Source: a virus
Virus record (IMG/VR): IMGVR_UViG_3300004461_000237
Span: 1-30,001 of that record
DNA: 30,001 bases
Strand: one strand, 5' to 3'
In this document: positions 1 to 26,727 of the stretch, in pieces
How positions within the stretch are numbered: position 1 is the first letter of the stretch
Layout: every line of letters begins with the position of its first letter
The notes under the pieces: model-generated
Told to the model about the DNA's origin: nothing
What the model saw: only the letters and a program-made list of their open reading frames with translations
The model's database searches: none
Made by a program: the position numbers and the translations under genes

Positions 1-2415
1 GCCAATCAGCTGGTGACAAACCCAGACAACAGCCAAGAGCCGCGTTTTGCTTGCAACACCGTAATTGGCAACAGAGCCGAAGCTTTCAACGTGTTGCAAG
101 ATTTGGCAAGCGTATTTCGCGGAATGCTTTTTTGGCAAGCAAATACGATCCAGGCGGCTGCTGATCACGGCAATCTGAATGGAACGGCAATCGCCCCCGT
201 TCACCTTTACACAAATAGCAACGTTATTGATGGAGCGTTTAGTTACTCGGGCACTTCACTTAAAACACGCAGCACTAGTATTAGAGTTAGGTATAACGAT
301 CCACAAAACTTCTATAAATCTAACTTTGTTGTTGTTGAAGATGCAACACTGATTAGCAAGTATGGATACCAGATAAAAGAAATCGTTGCCATTGGCGCAA
401 CGTCTAAATTTCAAGCCCAACGTTTAGGCCGTTGGATGCTGGCATCTGAGGAAATTGATGGAGAAGTCGTAAGTTTTACCACTGGCCTGCAAGGAGCAGT
501 CGTATTGCCGGGCCAAGTGTTTGCTGTAGCAGACGAGATGCGTCAAGGCGTAAGACTTGCGGGACGTGTCAGTAGCGCAACAACTAGCTCGATCACTACA
601 GATCAGACAATTGCTTTACCCGCTGGGTCTAGTCATACGCTCACATGCACGATGCCTGATGGAGCGGTTGAAACCAGATCAATCGCTAGTACAGCTGGAG
701 CGGTAATTAATACGTCGTCATTTAGCAATGCTCCGTTAGAGCAATCAATTTGGTCAATTGCTTCCTCTAGCGTCCAACAGCAAAAATTCAAATGCTTATC
801 TGTTGCTGACAACGGCGAAGGTCAGTATTCAATCACAGCGGTTGAGCATAATGACAGCATCTATCAAACGGCAGACACTGGGACAGATCTAGTTTTCCAG
901 GATGTGACGCTTTTTAATGATGCGCCTGCTAACCCTATAAATTTAACGATAGAAACGCGACAGATTGTAAACGGGCAAACGACATCGAACAGAACACTTG
1001 TGTCATGGAGTCGTGGACAAGATGGAGTCACTTTTGGTTTTGAATTGCGTTACAAGATTGCTGGCGGCAATTATCAAATCATTCAAACTTCCGATACCAG
1101 TTTTGAAATTGATAATTTAGACCCAGGCCGATTGCTAACAGTTCAGGTTAGATCAATTGGCGCACCCCCTGTTAATAGAAAATCAGCATGGGTTACAGCG
1201 ACTGGTGTGATCTCAGCTCCTGACGTTGATCCCGATAATCCTGGCACAGTTGCAAGACCAACCTCTCCGATTAATGTCACTATTCAAGCCACTGAAGGCG
1301 ATCAAGTCGTCTTTAGGTGGGAAATCCCTCAGTCAGTTAGTGCAACATCTCGCGCCAACCTTTTAGCAGTAATTCGACACTCAACACAACTTGATGGATC
1401 GGGTGAATGGTCAAACAGCACGCTTTTGAGAATAGTCAAGGCCGAAACTAATTCGGTTGTTATGCCGTTGATGGAAGGCGAATATCTTATCAAGTTTCAG
1501 GACGAAAGCGGGCAGCGGAGCATAAAGGCAGTTAGCGCAACAATTGATTTGCCGGATCGGTTGCCGCGTTTGAATATCGACGTAAGAAGAGAAGACGCAG
1601 ACTCGCCGCCGTTCCAAGGTGAAAAAGTAGGAGTTTTCTACAGTTCTGTTTATGACGGTCTTATCATGGACGGAGACGACAGGATCGACGCTAAGCCTGA
1701 CTTTGACGCAATCCCAATATTTGATTTCTTTGGGGAGAGGCTTGCTGCTGGCGAATATTTTTTCCGTAATGTCTTGGACTTTGGTGGTGTTTTCAATGCC
1801 GTTTTCACTCGTACACTGACAAGTCGCGGCTTGTATCCAGAGCAAGGAATTGACACTCGCACTGAGCTGATTGACAGATGGTCAGATTTTGACGGGGAAA
1901 TTCCAGATGATACAAATGCGGCTATCTATTTCAGAACTAGCAACCAGGCTACAACTGAGGAGTTTTTCTTGCTAGAGGACCTTGATTTTCTTTTGCTGGA
2001 AAGTGGCGACAAAATTGAGATGGAATCAAACATAAATTTTGGCCCGTGGTTCCCAATGGAAGCAGGGAGGCACACTGGCAGGCAGTTCCAGTTCAAGGCC
2101 GAGATGATGACGATGCACCCAGATCAAACGCCGTTAATTGATCGCCTGGGTTACACGATGCAGCTTGAGTCTCGAACTGAGAGTAGTGCAACCATAGCTT
2201 CTGACGGTGGACTGAAAGCAGTAGTTTTTGACAATGCTTTTTACCAAGAGCCAAGCCTCGGAATAATTGCGTTCAATCTGGCGTCTGGGGACTATTATGA
2301 AATCACAGCAGCTTCTAGGTCTGGTTTCACTATTGCGTTCAAGGACGGCTCTGACGCCTTAATTGATCGGAGTTTCCAGTACCAAGCAGCGGGTTACGGC
2401 ACTGAGCAGTCTTAA
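1..2415 (+). CDS. Tail tip / host-specificity protein, lambda J-like (5' end missing)
   Basis: The frame is open to the first base, so the true start lies outside the window; the GTG at 13 is internal. The opening residues (PRFACNTVIG, then DLASVFRGMLFW) match the central part of lambda J-type tail-tip proteins, which close the tail tube and contact the host receptor. Two fibronectin type III-like stretches follow, at roughly residues 305-400 and 410-515 counted from the GTG. The C-terminal 280 residues are beta-rich and unassigned. It heads a + strand run of fibre genes, with the next ATG two bases after its stop, as expected for the end of a siphovirus tail module. The family call is from sequence resemblance, not a search. 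Confidence 0.85.
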   Translation, partial: ANQLVTNPDNSQEPRFACNTVIGNRAEAFNVLQDLASVFRGMLFWQANTIQAAADHGNLNGTAIAPVHLYTNSNVIDGAFSYSGTSLKTRSTSIRVRYNDPQNFYKSNFVVVEDATLISKYGYQIKEIVAIGATSKFQAQRLGRWMLASEEIDGEVVSFTTGLQGAVVLPGQVFAVADEMRQGVRLAGRVSSATTSSITTDQTIALPAGSSHTLTCTMPDGAVETRSIASTAGAVINTSSFSNAPLEQSIWSIASSSVQQQKFKCLSVADNGEGQYSITAVEHNDSIYQTADTGTDLVFQDVTLFNDAPANPINLTIETRQIVNGQTTSNRTLVSWSRGQDGVTFGFELRYKIAGGNYQIIQTSDTSFEIDNLDPGRLLTVQVRSIGAPPVNRKSAWVTATGVISAPDVDPDNPGTVARPTSPINVTIQATEGDQVVFRWEIPQSVSATSRANLLAVIRHSTQLDGSGEWSNSTLLRIVKAETNSVVMPLMEGEYLIKFQDESGQRSIKAVSATIDLPDRLPRLNIDVRREDADSPPFQGEKVGVFYSSVYDGLIMDGDDRIDAKPDFDAIPIFDFFGERLAAGEYFFRNVLDFGGVFNAVFTRTLTSRGLYPEQGIDTRTELIDRWSDFDGEIPDDTNAAIYFRTSNQATTEEFFLLEDLDFLLLESGDKIEMESNINFGPWFPMEAGRHTGRQFQFKAEMMTMHPDQTPLIDRLGYTMQLESRTESSATIASDGGLKAVVFDNAFYQEPSLGIIAFNLASGDYYEITAASRSGFTIAFKDGSDALIDRSFQYQAAGYGTEQS

Positions 2416-14314: not shown

Positions 14315-14486
14315 AGAGCTAATGATGGAGCGGTCGGTTCGTTCTATTCACAACACTGAAGACCTTGAAGAAGTCCAAGGTTTATGTGCTTCTTTGGTGC
14401 GGCAGAACTGGCATCAGCGTAAATTGTTGTGCCAAGCGATCAGCAAGATTGCCGAGATGGATGCTCAATCAGTTTGTTTGGAGTGA
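14271..14486 (+). CDS. Small helical acidic protein
   Basis: 71 residues from ATG 14271, which has a GGAG site six bases upstream; this start is better supported than the further upstream ATG at 14211. The sequence is helical (MDEMSWMIAELTLHEELMME, DLEEVQGLCASLVRQNWHQR), with no known motif. It is the last gene of the rightward lysis/nucleotide block and overlaps the convergent gene's 3' end by 22 bases. Confidence 0.6.
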   Translation: MDEMSWMIAELTLHEELMMERSVRSIHNTEDLEEVQGLCASLVRQNWHQRKLLCQAISKIAEMDAQSVCLE

Positions 14487-14752
14487 TCGGACTTTTTTTC
14501 AAGTCTTTTTTTGAATTCACGCGCTCTGCCCTCCAGTCGAGCTTGAACAGCATCTTCCCAAACTAATTGGTCTGACTCAGCGGCTATTGCTTCTTCTTCT
14601 GGGAATTGAGACTTTAGCCATTTGTAAACAAGATTTCTAATAAACTCCGAAGGCTTTACGCCTTGCAGCTTTGCTTCTTCCAGGAGCAAGTTGCCGCGAT
14701 GTGGCTCCAAGAGTAGTTGTATGTAAATTCGGTTGCCGTGCTTTCCTGCCAT
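14465..14752 (-). CDS. Ribbon-helix-helix-like small protein
   Basis: 95 residues. The N-terminal half (GNRIYIQLLLEPHRGNLLLE then EAKLQGVKPSEFIRNLVYKW) has the strand-helix-helix pattern of CopG/Arc-type repressors, where the strand pairs in a dimer and inserts into DNA. The C-terminal half is a charged helix (VWEDAVQARLEGRAREFKKR). It is the distal gene of the leftward primase operon and could be a regulator of early genes. DNA binding is inferred. Confidence 0.65.
   Translation of the reverse strand: MAGKHGNRIYIQLLLEPHRGNLLLEEAKLQGVKPSEFIRNLVYKWLKSQFPEEEAIAAESDQLVWEDAVQARLEGRAREFKKRLEKKSDHSKQTD
14490..14512 (+). terminator. Weak candidate terminator for the rightward block
   Basis: GACTT (14490-14494) pairs with AAGTC (14501-14505) and is followed by seven T. 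The stem is only 5 bp and lies inside the 3' end of a convergent gene, but it is placed just after the last + strand stop. Confidence 0.35.
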
Positions 14753-15323: not shown

Positions 15324-15587
15324 TTATTGACTGGCTTCCAGTGACTTGAACTCGACAAGGCAGGCTGCGACGACGTTTTCAGCCTGACTTCTCGTAAGAA
15401 TGTTGCCAATCTTGCGACGAACCTTGCCAACAGTTTGATAAAAAACATCAGGGGTGATTGACGCACAGGAAGGAAGGTCGGCAAGCCTTTCGCGCATTAC
15501 ATCTGCACGGTTTAGTTTTCTAGCTTTAGCTTCTCTCTCAAGGCTTGCTATTAGAGAGTCTGATAGGCGGACTTTGATTTCTTTCAT
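15324..15587 (-). CDS. Ribbon-helix-helix-like DNA-binding protein
   Basis: 87 residues opening with MKEIKVRLSDSLIASLEREA then KARKLNRADVMRERLADLP, a close fit to the strand-helix-helix (CopG/Arc) pattern. The C-terminal part (YQTVGKVRRKIGNILTRSQA) adds a second helical domain. It overlaps the upstream gene by 50 bases. It is a candidate early regulator or plasmid-copy-control-like protein of the replication operon, and possibly the binder of the TGTCCCA cluster a few hundred bases upstream. That link is inference only. Confidence 0.7.
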   Translation of the reverse strand: MKEIKVRLSDSLIASLEREAKARKLNRADVMRERLADLPSCASITPDVFYQTVGKVRRKIGNILTRSQAENVVAACLVEFKSLEASQ

Positions 15588-15732: not shown

Positions 15733-15759
15733 GCTTCACGCGCGTATAGATGCCGTATA

Positions 15760-15964
15760 TGTCCCAACCGCCCCAAAACGCAGTGATAGCAGCGAAAGAG
15801 GGGTGGGACACAGGGGGTGGACAACTAGGTTTGTCCCAAGTCATCCGCTCCAACAACAATCTCAACCGAACCCTCTAAAAGGGTGGGACAAGTAAGCGTT
15901 GTCCCAGGCTTGTGTCCCAGGGTAGATTCCGTTCCAGCACTGGGATCTATAGGGTTATGGGACA
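15760..15964. repeat. Cluster of seven TGTCCCA/TGGGACA heptamers
   Basis: TGTCCCA occurs at 15760-15766, 15832-15838, 15900-15906 and 15913-15919. Its reverse complement TGGGACA occurs at 15804-15810, 15884-15890 and 15958-15964. The cluster spans the last 140 bases of the primase gene and the following gap, in several reading frames, so codon use does not explain it. The pair at 15884/15900 forms an 8-bp hairpin (TGGGACAA / TTGTCCCA). It may be a repressor operator or replication-origin iterons. Confidence 0.7.
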
Positions 15965-18056
15965 CTTTTGAACCCTCTCCACGCGCGAGAACAGCTTTAT
16001 AGCTCTTGCTTTGAGATTCTTCTGGAACGGTTGAGACGATGAGTCCTCTTTTTTCCAGCCTTTGGAGCGATTTGCGTATAGCGGCTGAAGATCCACGAAT
16101 CAGGGAGTCGTAGAGGAGATCTTCTCTGGAGCGTGAATCTGGCCAAGCAGCAACCAGTCTTTGAAGGACTCTTCCGGTGACAGAAGCAGGAGAGGTGTCT
16201 TTTTCGTCAACGGCTGGGGTGAAGTCAGAAACGGTGAAGGAAAGGTCGTCGTCCATCTGCATTACCAATTGGGTGTTGGAGCGTCCAGACCGTGACTTCT
16301 CGATCGTTATGAGGCGGCTGTGAGCCCCTACAGAGCGTTTCTCCTCGTCAGTGGGCTGTCTAAGCGCCCATGTCTCGTCAACGGCGTCACGAATCGCTGA
16401 GGTACCTCTGAAGCCACCGTTCTTGTTGGCGTGGTGAACGATAAGGATCGTTGTGGCCGGGAAGAGGATGCCGTTGTTTTTGGTGAGCCAGTAGAGGGGT
16501 TGAGCAAACTCAGACTTGTTTTCATCAAAGGCCCGTCCACCAGAGCAACCAATGAGGGAATCAATGACGACCAGCTTTGGCTGATGCTTGTTCATTAACT
16601 TGACGAACTGTGCATAGCGTTGAAGCTGCCAGTCAGTCAGGAGCCTTGTGTTCTCATCGATTGGATAATCGACCTCTTCTAGCTGCTCTTTGATCTGCAT
16701 CAGAGACTGATCACCGTTGAGCAGCAATACAGGCCCTTGTTGTACTGGAACGTTGTTTCCCCTGACGAGGAACGGTTCACCAAGCGAGACGTGTTTGGCG
16801 ATAGCCCAAGCCGTCATTGACTTGCCATCACCACCAGCGCCATATATCAAGACGACAGAGGGATGAGGAAGGACATCAGGGATGAGGTATTCACGCTGAG
16901 TGTCCAACTCCATAAGTTCAGGCAAGGTCAGGATGTTTCTCTTGTTTTCGTACTGAAGCTGATCAACGATCAAACGCTCTAACGCGCCTTGATCTCTGTA
17001 GCCAGCCTGAAGAGCCAGAGTATTGAGCTTGTAGTTGACCTCAGCAGGGTTATCAAGATCAAGTATTTTTTTGGCGCGGTTCATGACTTCATGGAAGTCA
17101 AGAGTTGCGGTACGAATTTCTTGGACCTTGCGTTCGTCAGCAGTTTTTACGATTTTTTTTGCGTCTTCCGAAAATCGGTGCCTCTCTGGGTCTTCTCTAT
17201 CGGCTAACCAGATCAGGGTTCCAATGCCTACAGCACCACCTTTGAAGGAGAACCAGACATCTCTACAGGGGTCTGAGTCTTGCCATTCAGAAGCAAAGTC
17301 AGGATCCTCTGCGGACCAGGCAGACCAAAGCATTAAACCAGCTTCAGTTGGCAAGGCAGAGTTAATTGCCATACCAATTTTGACCCAATGATCTCTGGAT
17401 CCTTTGCCTTTGCAGGGAATTACATCTAGGCAATCTTTGATAATTTCAAAGACTTCATCTGCGGTTCTATCTGAGAAGTCAAGATCACGTTTAACCATAG
17501 TTTTTGGCGGCTGTCTCATTTCCGCCAACAACCAGTCTGGAGCTACTGGAATGGAGTTGAGATCTCCTTCAATTTTATATTCACCAGGCGTAGAAGTTTT
17601 GCCACCTGGATAGGCACCAAAGATGACGCCCTGCCGTTTTGAGTTCCAGAGGATTTCGTAATCCTGATCACCAAGCCCTCGGCCTTCTACGACGTTCCAT
17701 AGCTCTTCTGGAACGCGGAACAAGTACTTGGCAGCATTGACCCTGGTCGAAGTAACGACAGGGGCATTGTGGAGCGTATGACCCCAAATCTTGAGGAGCT
17801 TCTTGAGGCCACGATCAACATCAAGAATGACGATGCCATTGCCTCTGATGCCGGTGAAGACGCCAACAGCTTGAAGGTCAGGATTCTTTTGGGACGCAAG
17901 GGCAACATCAGCTGGCCCAAATTTGTGATCGAAGCTGGCTTCTAGGGGGTTCTTTCCGGTTGCGGGCTTACCGGAGAGCATTGGAGCGCCTTTGCGATAT
18001 ATCGGCGCGTATACCAGTCCTGAGGGAAGCGTGTTGACGAATTGAAAAAAGTTCAT
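15825..18056 (-). CDS. Primase-polymerase / RecA-like helicase fusion
   Basis: 743 residues. Residues 1-180 resemble the bifunctional primase-polymerase (AEP) domain, with the metal-binding pair in ILDVD (Asp79, Asp81). Residues 200-290 resemble the PriCT-2 primase C-terminal domain (EVFEIIKDCLDVIPCKGKGS, HWVKIGMAINSAL, WFSFKGGAVGIGTL). A RecA/AAA-25-type ATPase follows, with Walker A IYGAGGDGKS (404-413), Walker B LVVIDS (495-500) and HH at 541-542. The end looks like a winged helix (LLYDSLIRGSSAAIRKSLQR). It would prime and unwind DNA at the phage fork. The usual AEP second-motif histidine is not evident: the position reads STRVNAAKYLFRV. It heads a leftward operon with a candidate promoter at 18151-18179. 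Confidence 0.88.
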   Translation of the reverse strand: MNFFQFVNTLPSGLVYAPIYRKGAPMLSGKPATGKNPLEASFDHKFGPADVALASQKNPDLQAVGVFTGIRGNGIVILDVDRGLKKLLKIWGHTLHNAPVVTSTRVNAAKYLFRVPEELWNVVEGRGLGDQDYEILWNSKRQGVIFGAYPGGKTSTPGEYKIEGDLNSIPVAPDWLLAEMRQPPKTMVKRDLDFSDRTADEVFEIIKDCLDVIPCKGKGSRDHWVKIGMAINSALPTEAGLMLWSAWSAEDPDFASEWQDSDPCRDVWFSFKGGAVGIGTLIWLADREDPERHRFSEDAKKIVKTADERKVQEIRTATLDFHEVMNRAKKILDLDNPAEVNYKLNTLALQAGYRDQGALERLIVDQLQYENKRNILTLPELMELDTQREYLIPDVLPHPSVVLIYGAGGDGKSMTAWAIAKHVSLGEPFLVRGNNVPVQQGPVLLLNGDQSLMQIKEQLEEVDYPIDENTRLLTDWQLQRYAQFVKLMNKHQPKLVVIDSLIGCSGGRAFDENKSEFAQPLYWLTKNNGILFPATTILIVHHANKNGGFRGTSAIRDAVDETWALRQPTDEEKRSVGAHSRLITIEKSRSGRSNTQLVMQMDDDLSFTVSDFTPAVDEKDTSPASVTGRVLQRLVAAWPDSRSREDLLYDSLIRGSSAAIRKSLQRLEKRGLIVSTVPEESQSKSYKAVLARGEGSKVSHNPIDPSAGTESTLGHKPGTTLTCPTLLEGSVEIVVGADDLGQT

Positions 18057-20218: not shown

Positions 20219-20406
20219 ATTTAGAAAGAGCTTTAGAGGATATATTTACAGGACAAAGAAATGTCGCTAAAGAGGCCAAAGAGCTTGGTATGTCAACACA
20301 GGAGTTAAAGGATATATTTACAGAGTACGCAATAAAACGCCCCATCAACATTAATGATGAGGACGTTTGGAACGTAGACACAGAACCGTCCTGGCCCTAC
20401 ATGTGA
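20215..20406 (+). CDS. Small helical protein with an internal repeat
   Basis: 63 residues with two related units, LEDIFTGQRNVAKEAKELG and LKDIFTEYAIK. Between them AKEAKELGMSTQELKDIF has a helix-turn-helix-like rhythm. The repeat is also exact at DNA level for 15 bases. Its last ten bases overlap the 3' end of the convergent zinc-ribbon gene. It may be a small DNA-binding protein, but the evidence is thin. Confidence 0.6.
   Translation: MNLERALEDIFTGQRNVAKEAKELGMSTQELKDIFTEYAIKRPININDEDVWNVDTEPSWPYM
20237..20323 (+). repeat. 15-bp direct repeat AGGATATATTTACAG
   Basis: Identical copies lie at 20237-20251 and 20309-20323, 72 bases (24 codons) apart, in the same reading frame. They encode DIFT in both units of the protein. 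An intragenic duplication is the simplest reading. Confidence 0.8.
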
Positions 20407-20696
20407 GACCTCAGGTCAGCATCGATCTGTTTTAACAACACTTGAATCGCCTTAGTTTTCTGTTGAATCTTTTTATCAACAATAACCCCGCGAAGCTTAT
20501 TCACATCACTAAAGCTCAACTGCAAGGTAGACCATCTATGACCACAAACTTGACATTCATGCCTTCTTCTAACGATACAATCTTTTGGAGCGTAACCTTT
20601 CCAAGCTTTAATGAGCGAGTTATGAGTAGTATTAATCTTTCTAGTTTCAAGCGTGTCTGATCTTTCATGATTACAGTCAGGGCAGGTCAAGTTCAT
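20397..20696 (-). CDS. NrdR-like zinc-ribbon protein
   Basis: 99 residues. Cysteine pairs CPDC (5, 8) and CQVC (48, 51), with RRRHE before the second pair and HRWSTLQ after it, match the zinc ribbon of NrdR and the Ogr-type phage activators. The NrdR ATP-cone domain is absent; the C-terminal half is a charged helix (GVIVDKKIQQKTKAIQVLLK). The family binds DNA and regulates ribonucleotide reductase or late genes. It is the last gene of the leftward 22.1-20.4 kb chain. A second zinc ribbon lies at 26476. Confidence 0.7.
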   Translation of the reverse strand: MNLTCPDCNHERSDTLETRKINTTHNSLIKAWKGYAPKDCIVRRRHECQVCGHRWSTLQLSFSDVNKLRGVIVDKKIQQKTKAIQVLLKQIDADLRSHM

Positions 20697-22701: not shown

Positions 22702-23409
22702 TCATACTGTTTGGACGTACTTAGCGCCTGAACCATGCGCCTGAACGTATATATCAGTCTTGTCTCCATCGCATAGCGAACAGGTCAGACACTGCGCTTT
22801 ACTCCCTTCTACTGTTGCGGGACACTTTTTAATCCCTGCGTACTCGATGTTGATAGGAACAACGCTAAAAGTTTTCCATCCTTGGGCGCTGGCGTCCAGG
22901 TAATCTTGCATTCCGTCACAACTAGCTTGCATGGAACCTTTCGCCCACTGCGCCCAGGCTTCTTTCCATTGGTGCGTGTAGGCTGTGTGACCTGCAGCTG
23001 CGCTATTAACAGCGTTAAAAATGATCGGGTTAATAATGGCTGGATCTCCATAGGCTCCCCAGCGAATCTTGACCTTTGACAGGTACTTCCTACCTTGTGC
23101 AACGGTTAGATCTGTTTCGTACTTACCAGCCTTGAACGCACGCCAGACACTAAGCGGAGCCTGCCCCACGTTGACGTAACAAGAGCGGGAACCGTCTTCC
23201 TGTTTTCTATGTCCACAGTTTCCACAGATCGAAACGTCAGCGCCAATCTGTACAGCCTCAACAGGGTTTAAATCACTCCTCAGGATCCAGACCTGAGCCA
23301 TGTTGCCGGTCTTCCTGTTGCTTGATTTCAGCGTCAAGATCACCACGTAAGGTGATCCGTCAATAGGACTCGATCCCTGATCGAGAATAAATCCGAGAGG
23401 TTTCCCCAT
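22702..23409 (-). CDS. DUF7227-like Cys-motif phage protein
   Basis: 235 residues. The layout PYVVILTLKSSNRKTGNMAQ, VWILRSDLNPVEAVQIGADV, ICGNCGHR, SCYVNVGQAPLSVWRAFKAG, KIRWGAYGDPA, YTHQW and CPATVEG..AQCLTCSLCDG is one I recognise from a widespread phage family (DUF7227) of unknown function. Two Cys clusters suggest a metal or iron-sulphur site. The mono-cistronic unit has terminators on both sides; a TTGGTACGG element lies ten bases upstream of its ATG. Confidence 0.72.
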   Translation of the reverse strand: MGKPLGFILDQGSSPIDGSPYVVILTLKSSNRKTGNMAQVWILRSDLNPVEAVQIGADVSICGNCGHRKQEDGSRSCYVNVGQAPLSVWRAFKAGKYETDLTVAQGRKYLSKVKIRWGAYGDPAIINPIIFNAVNSAAAGHTAYTHQWKEAWAQWAKGSMQASCDGMQDYLDASAQGWKTFSVVPINIEYAGIKKCPATVEGSKAQCLTCSLCDGDKTDIYVQAHGSGAKYVQTV

Positions 23410-24480: not shown

Positions 24481-24650
24481 GAACGATTCTCAAGTAAAAT
24501 GATAATCATTCTCACTATTTTAATAATGATAATCATTCTCACTTTTTCACAACGTTGCGAAAGCGTACTATTTTGTACTACCGAGAACGATAATCATTCT
24601 CATTCTCAATAGGGGGGCGGTGTTGCGAATAAAAATGAGAATCATTCTCA
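24481..24650. promoter_or_regulatory. Array of Fur/Zur-box-like 7-1-7 palindromes
   Basis: TGATAATCATTCTCA occurs exactly at 24500-24514 and 24527-24541. CGATAATCATTCTCA occurs at 24588-24602, with a second ATTCTCA tandem at 24602-24608. TGAGAATCATTCTCA, a perfect 7-1-7 palindrome, occurs at 24636-24650, and a degenerate unit ending ATTCTCA lies at 24478-24492. The established Fur/Zur-family site is TGATAATnATTATCA. The 19-base windows match the classical Fur box GATAATGATAATCATTATC at 16, 17, 16 and 15 of 19 positions by hand count. Binding by a host Fur, Zur or PerR protein is inferred; no such regulator is encoded here. Confidence 0.7.
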
Positions 24651-24696
24651 GGCCCGGTACCCTAAACATATTCTCGTCAACTAGCACTCGTGTACT

Positions 24697-26475: not shown

Positions 26476-26727
26476 GTGAAGTCACTGAGGAGAATGCCCT
26501 GCCCTGCTTGCGGATCGGGGGAAACAAAGGTCGTGTCTACCTATACATCACAAGATGATGATGTAGTGAGGTTTCGTGTTTGCGAGGAGTGCGGCAAGAA
26601 ATTTAGGACGCTCCAGCCCCCGGAGGACATCCTTGCCAACACGCTAGTAGTTAAGTACTACCCGCGAGACACTGAGAAGCATAAGAAGAAGATGATCATC
26701 CTTGAGTGCGATCCACGATTGGCCTAG
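26476..26727 (+). CDS. Second NrdR-like zinc-ribbon protein
   Basis: 83 residues with CPAC (9, 12) and CEEC (36, 39) plus KKFRT, the NrdR zinc-ribbon signature. The NrdR ATP cone is missing; the tail is basic (YYPRDTEKHKKKMIILE). GTG 26476 lies just behind terL; ATG 26494 gives the typical start MPCPACG but its AGGAG lies only one base away. The family normally represses ribonucleotide reductase genes by binding NrdR boxes; in the head block its target is unknown. Its relation to the ribbon at 20397 is only the shared fold. Confidence 0.7.
   Translation: MKSLRRMPCPACGSGETKVVSTYTSQDDDVVRFRVCEECGKKFRTLQPPEDILANTLVVKYYPRDTEKHKKKMIILECDPRLA

Follow-up and report, generated by a model that had tools for sequence, protein, structure and literature searches.

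A mirrored eight-site array at the 3' end of a phage PrimPol-RepA primase gene as a probable replication origin read by the enzyme's own winged helix

At the 3' end of its primase-helicase gene, an uncultured marine virus carries eight TGTCCCA sites, one of them degenerate, arranged as a dyad. We hold with good confidence that this array is an iteron-type replication origin, to which the virus's own PrimPol-RepA helicase binds through its C-terminal winged helix. The precedents among initiator helicases (SaPI, SCCmec, P4 alpha and PrimQH), the arrays found inside the ORF and the failure of the neighbouring RHH proteins to follow the sites together point to an origin read by the winged helix. 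The window analysed (30,001 bp) is the whole of an IMG/VR virus record. A blastn search of INPHARED found no DNA relatives of the window, and a literature search with the heptamer string returned chance matches only, e.g. primers.

The array and its dyad

The exact heptamer TGTCCCA/TGGGACA is present in eight copies in the window, seven of which are packed into 205 bp (15760–15964). Shuffled sequences gave an expectation of 3.8 copies of TGTCCCA per 30 kb, and the Poisson chance of seven copies in 205 bp is ~1e-15 per position. The positions and strands given for the seven copies in the initial annotation were confirmed (Table 1), and the single outlying copy that it mentioned does exist, at 879–885 on the minus strand rather than near 889. 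The copies do fall in mixed codon frames and do run past the stop codon, as had been described: five lie within the primase CDS, in three frames, and two beyond the stop (15825–15827). The perfect 8-bp hairpin reported there is also present, with two arm pairs instead of one (15912–15919/15958–15965 and 15831–15838/15884–15891).

Beyond that description, the sites form an exact dyad, which includes the degenerate eighth site. The strand order of TGTCCCA over the eight sites is + - - + | - + + -, and the four mirrored pairs have a common centre at 15861.5 (±0.5). The array is flanked by ACGCGCG words at approximately ±120 bp; CGCGCG occurs only three times in the window, two of which are these flanking words. 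In the relatives L054 and L062 the array is bracketed by CTATATATAAGAGT and ACTCTTATATAG instead of the ACGCGCG pair, and this bracket is also roughly symmetric. With f denoting TGGGACA on the coding strand, and with distances taken from where the primase stop codon ends, the site offsets were -139r -94f -81f -65r | -13f +15r +59f for the window, to which L039 and L076 add an intact +2r. Six of the seven exact sites in the window, and all eight in L039, are mirrored within 1 bp. Pairing of all eight sites was also obtained for GGGACA in L028, L030, L034 and L036, and for TGGACA in L014 and L018.

Table 1. Coordinates of the array, its flanking words and the primase-helicase features in the window
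Feature	Position	Strand	Basis or remark
Primase-helicase CDS, 743 aa	15825..18056	-	Pfam PF09250, PF08707, PF13481; AlphaFold model; Foldseek
Predicted winged helix, residues 626-688 (recognition helix 657-669)	15993..16181	-	AlphaFold (whole protein; domain alone)
Arg661 codon	16074..16076	-	Residue tracking motif class
C-terminal tail, residues 691-743	15828..15986	-	Bears five sites; predicted disordered, pLDDT <50
Flanking word ACGCGCGA	15981..15988		~123 bp from dyad, opposite side
Site 1 (outer)	15958..15964	-	TGTCCCA
Site 2	15913..15919	+	TGTCCCA
Site 3	15900..15906	+	TGTCCCA
Site 4 (inner)	15884..15890	-	TGTCCCA
Dyad centre of eight-site array	15861..15862		Centres of four mirrored pairs
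Site 5 (inner)	15832..15838	+	TGTCCCA
Site 6	15817..15823	-	Degenerate TGTCCAC; intact TGTCCCA at same place in L039, L076
Site 7	15804..15810	-	TGTCCCA
Site 8 (outer)	15760..15766	+	TGTCCCA
Flanking palindromic word ACGCGCGT	15738..15745		~120 bp from dyad; conserved in relatives

Elsewhere in the window, a stretch without a convincing ORF (24498–24656) contains four Fur-box-like palindromes (AATGATAATCATTCTCA; TGAGAATcATTCTCA at 24636–24650). Exact matches to them were found in the window only among the relatives examined, many of which end short of this region. Two small ORFs, at 20397–20696 (-) and 26476–26727 (+), read like putative NrdR-type zinc-ribbon proteins (CPxC...CxxC).

Conservation and geometry among relatives

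Eight dyad-paired sites were found at the primase 3' end in 66 of 86 close relatives and six in 16, compared with 0/1042 and 8/1042 respectively for control windows of 700 bp taken at random from the relatives' own contigs. A test that picks the best 6-mer itself recovered this array in the majority of 127 distinct relatives. Rather than being lost in relatives, an outcome that the initial annotation would have counted against its reading, the cluster is kept with its words changed. No clear array was seen in L052. L020, L030 and L039 carry an insertion of ~1.2 kb that separates the RHH gene from the small MNWTEIL ORF and leaves the array intact.

Within a half-array the sites are spaced ~44-13-16 bp from start to start, in the window group as well as in L113, L128, L129, L130, L134, L135, L165, L174, L189, L202, L210 and others. 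This spacing is broadly kept down to ~40% protein identity, and the mirrored layout is kept across families. Variants include a five-site half [44–45, 12–13, 12, 15] in L058, L063 and L064 (~40% identity), a three-site half in L047 and L056, and a half without the middle site in L139. In L073 and in the L054 type, both halves have the middle site in the opposite orientation, so that the dyad is retained.

The central gap between the two halves varies among relatives, with values of 20–22, 31–32, 38, 41–42, 52, 55, 63–65, 76 and 98 bp, which cluster at multiples of ~10.5–10.9 bp (simulated p 0.0003 with unique values and 0.02 with one value per clump). Helical phasing of the gap is therefore likely, although suggestive only, because p is 0.02 with one value per clump and the 38 bp gap of L062 is off the helical phase.

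Nucleotide conservation is higher in the sites than in their flanks, third codon positions included. In class A arrays (defined below) identity was 0.92 for site columns against 0.70 outside, and at third codon positions 0.98 within the sites against 0.66 outside, with classes B and C behaving alike. Taken together with the predicted disorder of the tail encoded here, this indicates that these codons serve the DNA words.

The primase-helicase and residue 661

The encoded protein has the domain order Prim-Pol, PriCT_2, RepA-like AAA_25 helicase, predicted C-terminal winged helix and predicted disordered tail. A Foldseek search with the AlphaFold model showed that the helicase core resembles RSF1010 RepA and DnaB-type SF4 helicases, and in fold searches the predicted winged helix matched MarR/ArsR-type and other winged-helix DNA-binding proteins. 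P4 alpha was not among the matches listed in either fold search, which says nothing on relatedness. A PDB sequence search with the primase found no relative for the winged helix, and the primase matched nothing in INPHARED beyond a Salmonella contig and an S-CBS4 ATPase of the RecA family, both weakly.

Among relatives at 66–77% identity, three classes of word occupy homologous places: TGGGACA (class A), CTGGACA, or GTGGACA at some sites (class B), and GGGGACA/AGGGACA (class C). All of the sites of one array change together. Co-variation was analysed in 81 primases with at least 60% identity, and only two primase columns, 661 and 719, carried the full class information. Since residue 719 lies within the site-bearing tail, residue 661 is the sole non-tail column that tracks the word perfectly (81/81), being arginine in class A (28/28), lysine in class C (30/30) and histidine or glutamine in class B (16+7). 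It falls in the predicted recognition helix. Compared with the value of 1.0 for primase residue 661, the best class information in neighbouring proteins was 0.50 for RHH15324, 0.55 for rhh14465 and ≤0.76 for the other neighbours tested.

In a tree of 41 dereplicated primase cores (residues 1–600), there are four changes of class, and every one of them is accompanied by a change at residue 661. Examples are the C types L100 and L104 within an A clade (97/84) and the A type L039 within a C clade (96/86). Whether by swaps of a whole 3' cassette or by point changes, the reader and its words would, either way, travel together. Arginine is also paired with TGGGACA in the farther relatives L054, L062, L138, L139 and L140. 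However, L185 (61% identity) has lysine with TGGGACA, and L056 has lysine with a TGYGACA-like word. Because these two break the class rule, residue 661 appears to be a main determinant and not a universal code. The L185 array itself consists of seven exact sites inside the ORF, with one inner site missing.

Scans for the geometry without reference to proteins

We scanned 2.9 million viral contigs for the geometry alone (TGTCYCA-36..38-TGRGACA-5..6-TGRGACA-9-TGTCYCA). This retrieved 65 stretches. In 62 of them the array sits at the 3' end of a PrimPol-RepA primase gene; the remaining three matches lie ≤80 bp from a contig end. A second scan, using GGGACA, brought in 49 further stretches; the primase is present in 48 of them, and the remaining one lies ~95 bp from a contig end. 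With both scans pooled, 110/110 testable matches were located at the 3' end of a gene of the PrimPol-RepA primase family, showing that, for these two words and in that collection, the array is specific to this family. Residue 661 in the second scan was lysine in 38/38 readable class C arrays and arginine in the eight TGGGACA ones.

A strict half-array scan with CTGGACA gave no match, because the outer site of class B is GTGGACA, and a TGRAACA half-array scan gave none either. The array test applied to S-2L, BPP-1 and S-CBS4 found no comparable array. By eye, the region after the PrimPol gene of S-2L (L163; ~23040–23400) is rich in GGCAC/GTGCC and might be a differently built origin. Eight bacterial genome contigs (L142, L144, L146, L147, L149, L151, L155 and L156) encode RepA-like ATPases that are 26–30% identical to the helicase domain of the window, and clusters of GTCCCA/GTCTCA/GTTTCA/GGGACA-like words lie at or after the 3' ends of these genes, with eight dyad-paired GTCTCA in L144. 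To judge from these words, the same origin logic may possibly operate in bacterial mobile elements.

Alternative explanations

The array might instead be an operator, not an origin, through which some phage regulator, be it the winged helix of the primase or another, controls transcription at the joint between the primase and the downstream gene. In the window and close relatives it does extend across the primase stop codon and the interval that precedes the next ORF, and iteron initiators often autoregulate. We nevertheless regard this as unlikely, since in L058, L063, L064, L047, L139, L185, L196 and L194 the primase ORF contains the whole array, as much as 537 bp ahead of where the ORF ends, and the array thus is not tied to the next promoter. 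Moreover, the next genes (MNW15538 and RHH15324) have no match in L054 and L062, and a fixed mirrored layout would be unusual for an operator. Binding by the primase for another purpose, e.g. autoregulation or copy control, would give rise to the same pattern. That the sites belong to the RHH proteins encoded beside the primase (15324–15587 and 14465–14752), an option raised in the initial annotation, is extremely improbable. Although the genes adjoin and one of the proteins has an RHH_1 match, no RHH residue tracks the motif class, RHH15324 was not detected in L054 and L062, which keep the TGGGACA array, and the matches of the protein-blind scans stay with the 3' end of the primase gene, including those cases in which the ORF contains the array.

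Nucleic-acid structure might also account for the repeats without any protein reading the words, either as a pRN1-like stem-loop origin or as an RNA structure at the operon joint, the latter having likewise been considered at the outset. The strand folds better than shuffles (z -3.5), and a stem-loop 3' of the PrimPol gene has been proposed for pRN1 and phage BPP-1 (PMC4234260). A stem, however, needs only matching partner arms, yet the eight sites share one word and switch it in concert; the flips of the middle site on both sides in L073 and L054 remove the inner hairpins and keep the dyad; and one protein residue (661) tracks the word. The RNA fold is accounted for by the inverted sites and is not conserved. 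Structure is thus very improbable as the main explanation. There is likewise only a very slight chance that the words are template sites at which the Prim-Pol domain starts primers. The protein does have such a domain, and the NrS-1 enzyme prefers a short template word. The CCPol-MP of SCCmec primes preferentially near its iterons (PMC7581432). But priming sites would be expected to spread over the lagging strand, whereas the window has one other exact copy, and the tracking residue is in the winged helix rather than in the Prim-Pol domain. Replication iterons, also among the options first listed, are by comparison strongly supported by the mirrored eight-site array, its conservation and the co-variation of residue and word.

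Proposed mechanism and comparison with known systems

Judging from the co-variation, the primase-helicase very probably binds the array sites, and it is quite probable that the array acts as an origin. In the mechanism that we propose for such an origin, the recognition helix (residue 661 and its neighbours) would read the heptamer, and four subunits would occupy each half-array. The two halves would lie opposite one another along a common face of the helix, since central gap lengths tend towards integral numbers of helical turns. The bound halves could then seed two oppositely oriented RepA-type hexamers, a loading step to which we give an even chance; the hexamers would unwind the DNA outward, and the fused Prim-Pol would prime synthesis.

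The closest precedents are SaPI Rep and SCCmec Cch2, whose C-terminal domain binds iterons directly downstream of their own gene (PMC7581432). Like the present system, they have a self-loading initiator helicase with a C-terminal DNA-binding domain (predicted here), short iterons 3' of the gene (AAGTG for Cch2) and a proposed pair of hexamers. Theirs, however, are DUF927 and D5-like helicases, whereas here a Prim-Pol is fused to a RepA-type helicase, the array overlaps the coding end, and an eight-site dyad is kept across families with switched words. P4 alpha (described in PMC4234260) is also a primase-helicase with a C-terminal winged helix and origin repeats, which it binds and for which binding is predicted here, but its primase is of the TOPRIM type, and the present array is a single dyad at the gene 3' end. 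Multiple short sites near the initiator gene, the 3'-end position and a predicted C-terminal DNA-binding domain, all features of origins with a self-loading Rep, were found here. No AT-rich unwinding element was found at the array (GC 0.50–0.58 around it), and L054 and L062 alone have AT-rich flank words. The GC skew of the window is positive over almost its whole length and does not switch at the array. Because the iteron, position and C-terminal-domain features are present but the AT-rich element is not, the array would work like SaPI Rep/ori and P4 alpha as a variant rather than as a member of the SaPI or P4 type.

PrimQH primases share the domain order (AEP, PriCT, a P-loop ATPase of RepA, DnaB or other type, and a C-terminal WH), and their winged helix has been predicted to recognise the origin; the available part of that work identifies no origin (PMC5862659), whereas candidate sites and a specificity residue can be named here. 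RSF1010 RepA/RepB'/RepC likewise combine a RepA-type SF4 hexameric helicase core, a primase and an iteron reader, but as three separate proteins instead of one polypeptide. Word switching together with the DNA-binding domain recalls the RepA_N initiator of the Vibrio cholerae PLE, in which this domain co-varies with the origin by repeated swapping (PMC8263062), although that initiator is unrelated and the PLE iterons, three of ~30 bp each, lie in non-coding DNA. pRN1 ORF904 (PMC4234260) also joins PrimPol, helicase and C-terminal winged helix and has its origin 3' of the gene, but needs a large stem-loop and has no iterons, whereas here the repeats, not a stem-loop, are conserved. For BPP-1 (PrimPol-PriCT_2-SF3-WH), the authors of the pRN1 study searched for iterons and put forward a stem-loop in their place (PMC4234260).

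Relative to the open-access literature, three things are new: a mirrored geometry that persists from family to family, its location within codons for a fused PrimPol-RepA protein, and the link between residue and word. More tentatively, and at somewhat less than even chance, these features may define an undescribed class of phage origin, in which a mirrored array of 8–10 sites lies in the C-terminal codons of a one-protein PrimPol-RepA replisome, same-face halves at variable distance load two head-to-head SF4 hexamers, and interchangeable word/helix types make the replication of related phages mutually exclusive. The types in view are TGGGACA-R, GGGGACA-K and CTGGACA-Q/H.

Implications

The winged helix of PrimPol-RepA proteins, so far only a predicted origin reader, can now be paired with concrete target words, with a mirrored layout of sites and with a single specificity residue, and a word that changes together with one amino acid makes the origin idea directly testable. 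Geometry scans offer a way to find origins in uncultured phages from DNA alone, having given no false match in two scans. The switching of words points to a change of origin type between related phages, as in the PLE satellites, in which the suspected driver is a nuclease that cuts the origin. Should two hexamers prove to load head to head, the array would offer a clearly defined SF4 system for comparison with SV40 T antigen and E1.
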